Shown here: positions 36,545 to 40,463 of the stretch, piece by piece
Numbering within the stretch: the stretch's first letter is position 1
Layout: each line of letters begins with the position of its first letter
Assembly (NCBI GenBank): GCA_026986785.1
Contig: JALSNW010000015.1
Span: 1-64,000 of the forward strand
Direction: 5' to 3'
Length of the DNA stretch: 64,000 bases
Source of the DNA: Deltaproteobacteria bacterium
GTDB taxonomy: Bacteria; Desulfobacterota; Dissulfuribacteria; Dissulfuribacterales; QOAL01
The notes under the pieces: generated by a model
The model's input: only the letters and a program-made list of their open reading frames with translations
The model's database searches: none
What the model was told of the DNA's origin: nothing
Translations under genes and position numbers: made by a program

Positions 36545-36569
36545 CCTATTAAAAAAACGAAGTAATTGA

Positions 36570-36598
36570 GGCTGCCATGTGCAGCCTTTTTTATTTTG
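36570..36598 (+). terminator. Rho-independent terminator of the glutamate synthase operon
   Basis: GGCTGC (36570-36575), loop CATGT, GCAGCC (36581-36586), then TTTTTTATTTT. It lies 26 bases after the last stop codon, in the sense direction. Confidence 0.9.
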
Positions 36599-36633
36599 GA
36601 AACAGAAAGATTATTCATTCAATACTGTTATTC

Positions 36634-36661
36634 TTGACATAATTTTCACTTATGATACTCT
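36634..36661 (+). promoter_or_regulatory. Candidate sigma-70 promoter for the periplasmic gene trio
   Basis: TTGACA at 36634-36639 is followed by GATACT or TACTCT 14-16 bases later, in a very AT-rich stretch. It would leave a leader of about 185 bases before the first gene. The -10 match is poor. Confidence 0.35.
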
Positions 36662-36851
36662 AATTATTATCATATAACCGTAAGATCTATATTTTTGCTT
36701 CTATTCGATTGTATTCTATTAGTTGCCCTAAGGCCTTTTGGGGCGGAATGTTATTGTCACTTGCTCAATTAAAGGATTTCTTCGGCATACAATATCTGGG
36801 CCCATTAAAGAATTTGTTTGTACCAAATCATTATGTAGAGGAGGAACATTT

Positions 36852-37319
36852 ATGATGAAGAGATTGCTGATTATTTGTCTGGCCGTATTTTTTTCTACAG
36901 TATCGCTAAGTTATGCGCAAAATACGCAGGACGATGGACTTGGTGTCTGTTTCAAGGGGGAATGTTGGCAGGAAGAGGGATTGACCCGCTTGGCAGGGAA
37001 GGGATGTCCTACTCCTACCTTGTTTGTCAAAACAAGTCTTTGGGAGCTCAAATCCTATGTTCAAGGGGCGAAGAAGTTTGGATTGACCCCTGATCAGGTC
37101 AAAAAGTTAACGGATATCTATGAGCACGCCAACATGGTGGTTGTCAAGGAGAGGGGAAATCTGGAAAGTACCACCATCTTGTTGATTGCAGAGATGACCA
37201 AGGAATTGCCTGATCAGAAGAAGATCGACAAGCTTATAGACGAGATCGAAAATTATTGCTGGGGAGCAGTTCAGGAACTTGCCAAAGATGTCCATGCTGC
37301 GCGTTCCATAGTAAAATAG
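36852..37319 (+). CDS. Periplasmic Cys-containing Spy/CpxP-like protein, copy 1
   Basis: A 155-residue exported protein: signal peptide MMKRLLIICLAVFFSTVSLS plus YAQ, then a short Cys motif (CFKGEC, C-x4-C, followed by W) and a helical domain with GCPTPTLFVKTSLWELKSYV and GLTPDQVKKLTDIY. The LTPDQ and the helical hairpin pattern resemble the CpxP/Spy/ZraP group of periplasmic metal- or stress-binding proteins, but the Cys pattern is not the usual one. The next two genes are its paralogs: all share the Cys-Trp start, GC[PS], a helix starting at FI/LI and a Cys near the last helix (NYCWGAVQEL here). ATG 36852 follows GAGGAGG. Function unknown. Confidence 0.75.
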   Translation: MMKRLLIICLAVFFSTVSLSYAQNTQDDGLGVCFKGECWQEEGLTRLAGKGCPTPTLFVKTSLWELKSYVQGAKKFGLTPDQVKKLTDIYEHANMVVVKERGNLESTTILLIAEMTKELPDQKKIDKLIDEIENYCWGAVQELAKDVHAARSIVK

Positions 37320-37338
37320 GTAATTTAAGGAGGTAAAA

Positions 37339-37863
37339 ATGACCAAAAAGACTGTAAAGGTATTCTTATATTGTTTCTGTTTCATCATATTGTCTGTTGG
37401 CCTGTTGGTACCCGAAACCTTTGCTGCTCCCGGGCAGGCTATTGTAAAGAGGACTTGCCTTATGGGGCACTGCTGGAAGAGAATAGACGTGAACAAGCTT
37501 GGAGAGATAGGTTGTCCAGCACCCATGTTGATAATCAACAATGTCTTGAGGGAGCTCAATGGCTATCTGGCAGCACGTCAGCGCCTCAAGTTAAGCGAAA
37601 GCCAGGTCAAGCAGCTTAGGATCATAAAATATCGCTGTCACAATACCTTGATGAAGAAGAGGGCGGAGCTGAATCTTCTCTCCATTGATCTTCTGGACAA
37701 TATGTCTTCCAACCAGTTTGAGCTGGCCCAGGTCGCCGATCTTACGGAGAAGCTGAAATCTACTTGTCATGGCCTCCTTTCCGGAGTAATTAAGGAAGTC
37801 ATCGCAGCGAGAAAGGTCTTGACGCCGGAACAGAGAAAGATCGCCAAGGAGTTGGCATATTAA
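37339..37863 (+). CDS. Periplasmic Cys-containing Spy/CpxP-like protein, copy 2
   Basis: A 174-residue paralog of the preceding gene, with an N-terminal signal segment (about 8-30, FAAPG). It contains the same C-x4-C-W block (CLMGHCW), GCPAPMLIINNVLRELNGYL, a helix with KLSESQVKQLRIIKYRC, a Cys in KSTCHGLLSG and the C-terminal LTPEQRKIAKEL typical of CpxP/Spy LTxxQ motifs. A GGAGG site precedes ATG 37339, 19 bases after copy 1. A hairpin follows its stop codon. A metal or redox role is inferred only from the conserved cysteines and the family resemblance. Confidence 0.75.
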   Translation: MTKKTVKVFLYCFCFIILSVGLLVPETFAAPGQAIVKRTCLMGHCWKRIDVNKLGEIGCPAPMLIINNVLRELNGYLAARQRLKLSESQVKQLRIIKYRCHNTLMKKRAELNLLSIDLLDNMSSNQFELAQVADLTEKLKSTCHGLLSGVIKEVIAARKVLTPEQRKIAKELAY

Positions 37864-37878
37864 GCATCCTTCGGATGC
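37864..37878 (+). promoter_or_regulatory. Intercistronic hairpin between copies 2 and 3
   Basis: GCATCC-TTC-GGATGC forms a 6-bp stem directly after the copy 2 stop codon and 13 bases before the copy 3 ATG. No T-run follows, so it is more likely an mRNA-stability or translation element than a terminator. Confidence 0.4.
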
Positions 37879-37891
37879 ATGGTGAGATAAA

Positions 37892-38479
37892 ATGATAAAA
37901 CAATACGGTTATAAAAAAGGGCATGTTGTTGCCCTGTTTCTCATAACTGTATTGTGGATGCTAACTGTATGTGCTCCAATACCAACCTGTGCAGATCAGT
38001 CGAAAGGTTCTATGCCGGACAAAATAAATGTCGACAGGCTCTGCTGGAGCCTTGAAGATGTCAAGGGAAAGATAGGCTGTTCTGCACAGGATTTCATCAT
38101 CAAAGGTGCTATGTGCGAAATAGAGGCCCTCTTGGATATGGAAGACGACCTGAACCTGGATACGGATCAGAGGCATGAGATCGCCAAGAGATATAGAAAG
38201 TTCAAGAGAAGTTCCAGGCTTTGTCAGGCCAAGCTGAATATGACCTCAGTCCAGTTGAGTGAAACCCTCCAGGAAAAAGATGTGGACCCCGTTACCATGA
38301 TGAAACATATCAATGCCACTAAAAATCTCTGTTCCAAGTTGACTGATAGGGCCGTGTCTGCCCTCATAGACATGAAGCGTATCTTGACCCCTGAACAAAG
38401 ACAAATGGAAAAAAAGATACTTTTTCCTGCCAGCAGAAAAAATGAGGGTCAGTATATAGTAAATCCATGCGGCCAATAG
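37892..38479 (+). CDS. Periplasmic Cys-containing Spy/CpxP-like protein, copy 3
   Basis: A 195-residue third paralog, with a hydrophobic signal (about 12-33, ending TCADQ) and a shortened Cys-Trp block (DRLCWSLED). GCSAQDFIIKGAMCEIEALL, LNLDTDQRHEIAKRY, a Cys in SRLCQAKLNM, NLCSKLTDRAV and RILTPEQRQMEKKIL line up with the other copies. It has more cysteines than its neighbours. It ends 15 bases from the convergent histidine kinase gene. The three copies are divergent enough to be old duplicates. Confidence 0.72.
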   Translation: MIKQYGYKKGHVVALFLITVLWMLTVCAPIPTCADQSKGSMPDKINVDRLCWSLEDVKGKIGCSAQDFIIKGAMCEIEALLDMEDDLNLDTDQRHEIAKRYRKFKRSSRLCQAKLNMTSVQLSETLQEKDVDPVTMMKHINATKNLCSKLTDRAVSALIDMKRILTPEQRQMEKKILFPASRKNEGQYIVNPCGQ

Positions 38480-38494
38480 TTTAAGGTCGTATCG

Positions 38495-40006
38495 CTATTG
38501 TCCTTGTTCGTTCTTCTCCTCTTTTTTGTCACTGCGATCCACATCAAGATCTCCTTCCTGGTCCACAAGGGGTAGGACAATCCGCATTGTGGTGCCCTTT
38601 CCCCTTTGGGTCTCTATGTCTATGTCTCCATTGTGATCCTTTATTATTCCATAGCTAACAGAAAGGCCCAAGCCAGTACCATCTTTTTTCGTGGTATAGA
38701 ACGGTTCGAGAACATGCTGTAGGACCTCCTTGGGCATGCCTGGGCCATTGTCTCTTATGGTCAGCACAGCCTGTTTGTTTTTGGGGTCGGTATCTAGCTT
38801 GATCTCCAGCTCTCCACCTCTACCCATTGCCTGCACTGCATTTAGTATGATGTTAACCAAAACCTGTTGAAGCTGGTTCCGATTGCCCAGGACGATGGCA
38901 CCCCCCCTTTCTATCCAGGTCTTGAGCTTGGTATTAGAGATCTTCAACTCATTTCTCAAAAAGTTCAGGGTGGTCTCTACTATCTCTGCAAGGTCCACTA
39001 CCTCCTTGAGGGTCGTCTTTTTTCTGGAAAAACTCAGCAGGTGGTGAACGATGTCCCTTGCCCTTTCTACCTGGACAAGGATATCCCTCAAGAGCTCCTC
39101 CTTTTCCTCCTGGCTCATTTCATTCATGTCTTCCAGGAGGACCTCTGCTGTCAGATTGATATTGTTCAAAGGATTGTTTATTTCATGGGCGATACCCGCA
39201 GTAACCTTTCCAATGGCCGCCAGTTTCTCAGATTGCACCAGTTGCTCTTTCTTGCATTCTATTGTGTCAAGCATGAGGTTGATAGAGCGGATCAACTTGT
39301 CACATTCAACACATTTGTTCGCAACAGGTTCGATGGGGATGGCCTTCAGCTTTCCGCTCATGATCTCTCCAGCCTTCTTCCTCACATAGCCAAGGGGTTC
39401 AAGTATCCAATCGGCCAGGAAGATACAAAATAGTAGGCCGATGGGCAGGGCTATCCATAATAACAATATGGATAGTTCTTTATATAGGGTAACCTTGGCA
39501 TCTACCTGATTCTTCAAAGAACGGCTATTTTGGAGCATTGCCTCCATGAGGTCGTGCCCCCGGTTTCTAAGCGTCATCTTCAGGCTTTGCTCAGTGCCTT
39601 TTTTGATCTTGTGTTGTATAAATTTGTCCATTACCGCCTGGTATCTCCTGATCCTACCAGGGATATGACGGAAAAATTCAGCAGCATTAGGGGCGAGCTT
39701 TGATATCTTTTTCCTTATCTCTAAGAGGTCTTCTTTGGCCTCTATCAGTTCTTTGATGTTGTTGTAAAGGAGAAAATTTTTTTCTTTTTGTCTGATAAGA
39801 AGGATTTTCATGGTGAGAGCATCGAGCTTTTCCACCAGCTCCATCTTTTCCTCTACCTCTGAAATGGAATAGATTGCAGTGATGGATGAGAAGGCCGTTA
39901 TGGCAAACAGTATCGCAAAGCTGTAGAGTAATTTGGCCTTGAGGGACCTGGTGGAAAAAATCATGGCCACTTTTTCTTTATAGGAGCTTATATTGTCGTT
40001 CAGCAT
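38495..40006 (-). CDS. Sensor histidine kinase with periplasmic helical domain
   Basis: A 503-residue kinase from ATG 40006 (GGAG about ten bases upstream). Two membrane segments (about 26-48 and 178-202) flank a helical periplasmic region of about 130 residues, followed by a HAMP-like region with a Cys pair (NKCVECDK). Catalytic core: IAHEINNPLNNI, N-box LVNIILNAVQAM, G1 DNGPGMP, F LEPFYTTK, G2 GTGLGLSV. It is complete and should autophosphorylate. No response regulator is nearby. It faces the three periplasmic proteins tail to tail, which suggests, without proving, that they might modulate it, as CpxP or ZraP do for their kinases. Confidence 0.9.
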   Translation of the reverse strand: MLNDNISSYKEKVAMIFSTRSLKAKLLYSFAILFAITAFSSITAIYSISEVEEKMELVEKLDALTMKILLIRQKEKNFLLYNNIKELIEAKEDLLEIRKKISKLAPNAAEFFRHIPGRIRRYQAVMDKFIQHKIKKGTEQSLKMTLRNRGHDLMEAMLQNSRSLKNQVDAKVTLYKELSILLLWIALPIGLLFCIFLADWILEPLGYVRKKAGEIMSGKLKAIPIEPVANKCVECDKLIRSINLMLDTIECKKEQLVQSEKLAAIGKVTAGIAHEINNPLNNINLTAEVLLEDMNEMSQEEKEELLRDILVQVERARDIVHHLLSFSRKKTTLKEVVDLAEIVETTLNFLRNELKISNTKLKTWIERGGAIVLGNRNQLQQVLVNIILNAVQAMGRGGELEIKLDTDPKNKQAVLTIRDNGPGMPKEVLQHVLEPFYTTKKDGTGLGLSVSYGIIKDHNGDIDIETQRGKGTTMRIVLPLVDQEGDLDVDRSDKKEEKNEQGQ

Positions 40007-40463
40007 AGAAAAAATTCTCCGGTGTTGGATGACATAGTCATGAGTTGGGCTCAAGCTTAATTATTGAATGAATATATATTAATATAGCAAATAATTGACA
40101 AAAAAGTAATTGCAGTATATATATTTGGGGGATGGTATTCCTTGAAGTATTACCGGCACGTACTATCTTGTCAGTCTTGGCAATGCCTTGGGGCCTTTTC
40201 ATAGAAGCAGTGATATTAATATTAATCCCATGGATTGCCACGCAGATTTTTTGATATCTCAAAAATATCTTGCATGGTATAGACAGGTCAGATCGTCCTT
40301 TTGTTTCTTTTCGCCTCTTACTTGTGGGGCAGCCTTGCCTCTACTTGTATAAAAAATTGTAACCTCTAAGATAAAGGGTTATAACTTGGTTCATACCCCT
40401 TTTGCGGCTTCAAGAGCACGAGGATGTCTGTCTAATGTTGAAGAAGAACCAGGTATAGGAATT
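40007..40463. other. Divergent intergenic region between the histidine kinase and queC
   Basis: About 450 AT-rich bases containing the promoters of both genes. I see no clear preQ1 riboswitch upstream of queC, although a short CTCT..AGATAAAGGG stretch is in the right place. A minus-strand 74-codon frame here starts with TTG without a ribosome site and is not credible. Confidence 0.45.

Follow-up and report, generated by a model that had tools for sequence, protein, structure and literature searches.

What kind of locus joins three small cysteine-bearing secreted proteins to a histidine kinase that has no response regulator beside it? Such a locus occurs in a 64,000-nucleotide contig stretch (hereafter the window) of a Deltaproteobacteria bacterium of the order Dissulfuribacterales. 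A sequence-only reading had described the three proteins as Spy/CpxP-like and suggested that, with the kinase, they might form an undescribed metal- or thiol-sensing system. We examined the fold, residues, promoters, neighbours and distribution of both components.

The three genes, termed A, B and C and together the trio, are tandem open reading frames on the forward strand spanning 36852-38479, and a Sec-type signal sequence can be read at the N-terminus of each product. Gene A (36852..37319; 155 aa, predicted secreted) contains Cys33-x4-Cys38-Trp39, Gly51-Cys52-Pro and Cys136-Trp137. Gene B (37339..37863; 174 aa, predicted secreted) contains Cys40-x4-Cys45-Trp46, Gly58-Cys59-Pro, Cys143 and a C-terminal LTPEQR, and gene C (37892..38479; 195 aa) contains Cys51-Trp52, Cys63, Cys75-Glu-Ile, Cys147, LTPEQR and a C-terminal PCG. 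The motifs described earlier were recovered: C-x4-C-W is restricted to A and B, with CW in C, and GC[PS] and a late Cys occur in all three. LTPEQ stands near the end of B and C, not A, where the only such motif is an LTPDQ in the second helix. A, B and C are mutual paralogs, and a profile of the three retrieved them alone from the window's genome with no fourth copy, in agreement with the initial account of three tandem paralogs with signal peptides.

An intrinsic terminator (36568..36588, forward strand; 8-pair stem and T tract) follows the upstream glutamate-synthase-like gene, setting the trio apart from the upstream operon. Beyond it lies a sigma70-type promoter element (36634..36661, forward strand), read either as TTGACA-N16-TACTCT with an extended -10 (TG at 36653-36654) or as TTGACA-N19-TCTAAT; the exact -10 is uncertain, and the weak -10 was not listed by a consensus scan. 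In all six genomes found to carry it, the trio is preceded by TTGACA or TTGACT, followed 16-19 nt later by a -10-like element. Transcription from the predicted promoter would give the trio mRNA a leader of about 190 nt (36662-36851), longer in a congener (G001) and about 40 nt in a second genus. The leader matched no Rfam family, and the window as a whole contained no RNA element by Rfam and no tRNA by ARAGORN. Regulation of the trio by sigma54 was tested for and not supported: the region upstream of the window trio showed no sigma54 site, a scan of four other trio loci gave one weak match (the sixth, in G305, was checked for the sigma70 type only), the sigma70-type element recurs throughout, and strong sigma54 sites were found at singleton ZraP-like loci.

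Searches against the two candidate Pfam families gave matches, all of them under the curated gathering cut-offs. For PF13801 (Metal_resist), a weak match (E 7.6e-6), the best score was 26.5 bits, for C, against a cut-off of 29.2, with A at only 13.3; for PF07813 (LTXXQ) it was 20.8 bits, for B, against 24.3. NCBIfam held no family for the trio beyond one sub-threshold chance match. A profile of the 18 trio proteins from the six genomes matched Spy (E 0.001) and NccX (0.0013), and CnrX and ZraP weakly. An AlphaFold model of B showed a helical hairpin (pLDDT 88), for which Foldseek ranked CnrX and NccX best (probability 0.99-1.00, target TM-scores 0.55-0.73), then CpxP and ZraP; over the matches to CnrX, NccX, ZraP (3lay) and CpxP, probabilities were 0.82-1.00 and E-values were weak, about 0.15 or more. 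Because profiles, model and Foldseek agree, we assign the trio by sequence and predicted structure to the CnrX/ZraP/CpxP/Spy helical-hairpin fold class, with long helices 2 and 3, which bears out the original Spy/CpxP-like designation.

Each known member of this class differs from the trio in its own way. CnrX and NccX, sensors of Ni/Co, were the best fold matches and a weak profile match, but the trio carries Cys and lacks H119 and M123. These columns, the metal-ligand positions of CnrX, are Glu/Asp and Ala in the trio when read off the NccX alignment; any metal would therefore be bound via other residues, or not at all. No CnrY/CnrH-type genes were seen in the trio neighbourhood. CpxP and Spy share with the trio a hairpin with LTxxQ-type repeats (a fold match for CpxP, a profile match for Spy), whereas the trio has three co-conserved subtypes, its own Cys/Trp set and no CpxA-type kinase partner. 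The predicted likeness to the Spy chaperone is one of fold only, and the likeness to the CpxP kinase regulators one of genomic linkage to a kinase at only two of the six loci.

ZraP of the ZraPSR system (PF13801/PF07813) falls in the same predicted fold class (3lay match). Two genomes from the same family of organisms (G004, G008) show the canonical arrangement, in which a ZraP-like singleton and the genes for a ZraS-like kinase and a ZraR-like regulator are divergently oriented and the sigma54-type sites are strong, and the Met-rich ZraP-like proteins of such loci are among the closest relatives of the trio outside it. The trio differs from ZraP in its three copies, a Cys/Trp rather than Met-rich head, the sigma70-type in place of the sigma54-dependent promoter of ZraPSR, and the lack of an adjacent ZraSR: no response regulator was found beside the window trio, and no ZraSR pair at the other trio sites read. 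The kinase beside the trio, present in one genus, belongs to a different type, whose sensor is a helical bundle. In two sister-genus genomes (L043:274-4746, L044:2482-7184) we observed a Met-rich ZraP-like singleton and a divergent ZraS/ZraR-like pair with strong sigma54-type sites between them, apparently a canonical zra locus.

The residues that distinguish the trio are highly constrained. Identity between subtypes A, B and C is roughly 20-31%, and across all 18 aligned proteins the invariant columns are, in B numbering, Met1, Cys45, Trp46, Cys59, Glu72, Gln89 and Cys143. None of 5000 within-sequence shuffles produced an all-Cys column, as compared with three in the alignment, a pattern well outside chance expectation. 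The earlier Cys observation is a strong one and withstood the check for conserved Cys set for it at the outset. The C-x4-C-W and GCP motifs are placed at the start of helix 1, and the long third helix bears the further Cys. A and B have in common the first Cys of C-x4-C-W; C lacks it and has its own Cys75 and C-terminal PCG instead. In A, B, C and the kinase pN was well below pS, with pS near saturation in the three trio genes. Roughly 25 non-trio relatives read in the phylum were typically Met-rich and none had the whole Cys/Trp set; the initial impression that the Cys pattern is unlike that of known families stood. A search of a limited literature set found no cysteine-bearing member of the CnrX/ZraP/CpxP/Spy fold, which is weak evidence. 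One singleton Met-rich ZraP-like protein (L099, in G021) contains CMGGNCWKGGGCGCG, a C-x4-C-W head as in A and B, and is possibly an intermediate form.

The distance between the third and fourth Cys (Cys59 and Cys143 in B) is exactly 84 residues in 18 of 18 proteins, indicating that no net insertion or deletion between them is tolerated. This constancy suggests a fixed contact, and the Cys could be structural disulfides only: the proteins would then be Spy-like holdases stabilised against heat by Cys3-Cys4 and, in A and B, Cys1-Cys2 bonds, with no sensing of metal or redox state. The four conserved Cys of A and B, an even number, fit such bonding, and the named relatives of the host bacteria are thermophiles. 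However, of the two N-terminal Cys C retains only one, and it has two further Cys of its own; its disulfide pairing cannot be the same as in A and B, and neither the invariant Trp beside Cys2 nor the helix-1 Glu is needed for disulfides. We regard a purely structural role as unlikely.

We favour reading the trio as a ZraP/CnrX-type system in a new, Cys-based variant, and its distribution bears on how far it stands alone. The A-B-C order is kept in six genomes of three genera: the window's genome and its congener (G000, G001), three genomes of a second genus in the same family (G014, G016, G017), and one from another class of the phylum (G305). Six is a lower bound, since the collection-wide scan used copy-A-specific patterns, to which the G305 trio was invisible, and the search of the phylum covered a sample. 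The hosts are few, and probably hot-vent bacteria. In a tree of the trio proteins the A and C clades were each supported and each contained the copy from the distant G305, which makes the triplication older than the present spread; the grouping of B was not clear.

The trio occupies unrelated chromosomal sites in the window genus, the second genus and G305. In the second genus its flanking genes encode a macro-domain protein and an FKBP isomerase; the two genes adjoin each other without it in five other species of that genus and in G000, G001 and G002. In the window genus, trio and kinase together lie between the glutamate-synthase-like gene upstream and queC downstream, past the kinase; the whole block (36546..40385) is missing between these two genes in a sister species (G002, locus L164). 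No integrase or flanking repeat that would account for movement was found at the trio sites, and the empty sites are thus compatible with gain or with lineage loss. Beside queC, downstream of the kinase, the window also encodes a CxxCxxCC protein (PF03692; 41166-41561), putatively zinc- or iron-chelating.

The kinase itself (40006-38495, reverse strand) is a membrane histidine kinase of 503 aa, intact by domain content (HisKA and HATPase), without a response regulator of its own. Both features previously noted are present, a helical periplasmic domain and a Cys pair after the membrane (C232-x2-C235, in the linker after TM2; 39302..39313, reverse strand). Among the Foldseek matches listed for the full-length kinase, all were to kinase cores. 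No response regulator was found among the neighbours of trio and kinase scanned, as the first reading had stated. A paralog on contig C6 of the same genome (G000:C6:2774-4216), 63% identical, is followed by an NtrC-type sigma54 response regulator. Among 28 related kinase loci, a response regulator match lay within the flanks in 26 (in three via a weak receiver-domain match only), and the two loci without one were the trio-adjacent copies (L001, L050), whose kinases form a fully supported clade. Duplication explains why the window kinase is an orphan: the sigma54 regulator stands next to its paralogs.

Against the C6 paralog the window kinase retains 79% identity in DHp but 47% in the periplasmic domain, and more than 30 residues of the helix surrounding the phospho-accepting His show no difference. 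Given this conservation, the window kinase probably still signals to the unlinked sigma54 regulator on C6. The regulator-linked form, found at a TauE/PPDK-like locus in Dissulfuribacterales, has the same C-x2-C linker and differs from the window kinase in having its own sigma54 regulator. At several loci (L154, L155, L156, L159) the regulator-linked relatives of the window kinase belong to a recurring gene block that also encodes a TauE/SafE transporter, an Alph_Pro_TM protein, PEP-synthase-like (PPDK_N/PEP-utiliser) proteins and a stand-alone receiver domain. The C-x2-C pair is invariant in 16 aligned kinases, including those at loci away from any trio, and so is not the mark of a trio-specific device. 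By this comparison it is ancestral to the kinase family and predates the trio, contrary to its earlier inclusion in the trio system.

Could trio and kinase nevertheless form a dedicated sensing unit? CpxP restrains CpxA and ZraP restrains ZraS; in the same way the trio would keep the adjacent kinase inactive until its Cys bind metal or oxidant, with output to a distant response regulator. The fold relatives of the trio are known as kinase or anti-sigma regulators, the periplasmic domain is the part of the kinase most diverged from the paralog, and at one site two species have both trio and kinase and a third has neither. However, a neighbourhood survey found the kinase next to the trio at two of six loci, both in one genus. 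At the second-genus site the nearest kinase read was about 5 kb off, and at the G305 site a GGDEF protein, not a kinase, lay about 1.3 kb off. Even in the window the two converge, their stop codons about 15 bp apart, and so are not co-transcribed. The only element found upstream of the trio is of the sigma70 type, while the response regulator that might take the output belongs to the sigma54 activators, and the Cys pair of the kinase is the older feature. We consider a dedicated unit doubtful.

Fixed trio-kinase pairing, as first envisaged, was largely refuted by this survey. What survives of the proposed undescribed sensing system is the unusual Cys variant and the lack of a local regulator, not a fixed sensing unit. 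With most trio loci free of an adjacent kinase, we describe the trio as a cassette in its own right and the kinase as optional; their joint presence or absence at one site leaves a genus-specific link between the two possible.

Taken as a whole, our preferred reading, towards which we lean only slightly, is of a mobile ZraP/CnrX-fold cassette acting as a Cys-based periplasmic binder or chaperone, plus an optional duplicated kinase signalling to an unlinked sigma54 regulator. It builds on the established fold class, Cys conservation and co-conservation of A, B and C, on the different and empty sites, and on the kinase duplication. The trio would be a self-contained, mobile three-gene operon for three secreted hairpin-fold proteins in which a fixed Cys/Trp site replaces the usual Met- or His-rich metal-binding head. 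A, B and C would work together, probably as a hetero-oligomer, in the periplasm, where their thiols would bind a soft metal or other thiol-reactive stressor or equip them as a chaperone against it. In one genus a duplicated kinase appears to have been gained or lost together with the trio; with its periplasmic sensor diverged and phospho-acceptor domain kept, it would most likely feed the regulator of its paralog, and the trio proteins may modulate it there in the manner of CpxP and ZraP.

Analogy with the fold relatives, together with the conserved residues, makes binding of metal or thiol the likeliest role of the trio. Against the preferred reading as a whole, no metal-transport or redox-enzyme gene is fixed beside the trio across its sites, the CnrX ligands are not kept, all Foldseek E-values exceed 0.1, and the kinase neighbourhood is confined to two genomes. 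A more specific version, in which sulfur-metabolising vent bacteria use a hetero-oligomeric periplasmic Cys device to bind either a soft metal or reactive sulfur species such as polysulfide or sulfite, and the device gates, in one genus, a duplicated kinase of the family otherwise tied to loci for TauE/SafE (sulfite-exporter-type) transporters, strikes us as very unlikely.

To our knowledge, the ZraP/CnrX/CpxP/Spy fold has so far been known with His/Met metal sites or with none. The orphan kinase is a clear example, from nature, of duplication followed by loss of the regulator with the phospho-acceptor interface retained. For the fold itself, a fixed three-subunit cassette with invariant Cys would bring novel ligand chemistry and perhaps hetero-oligomeric assembly.
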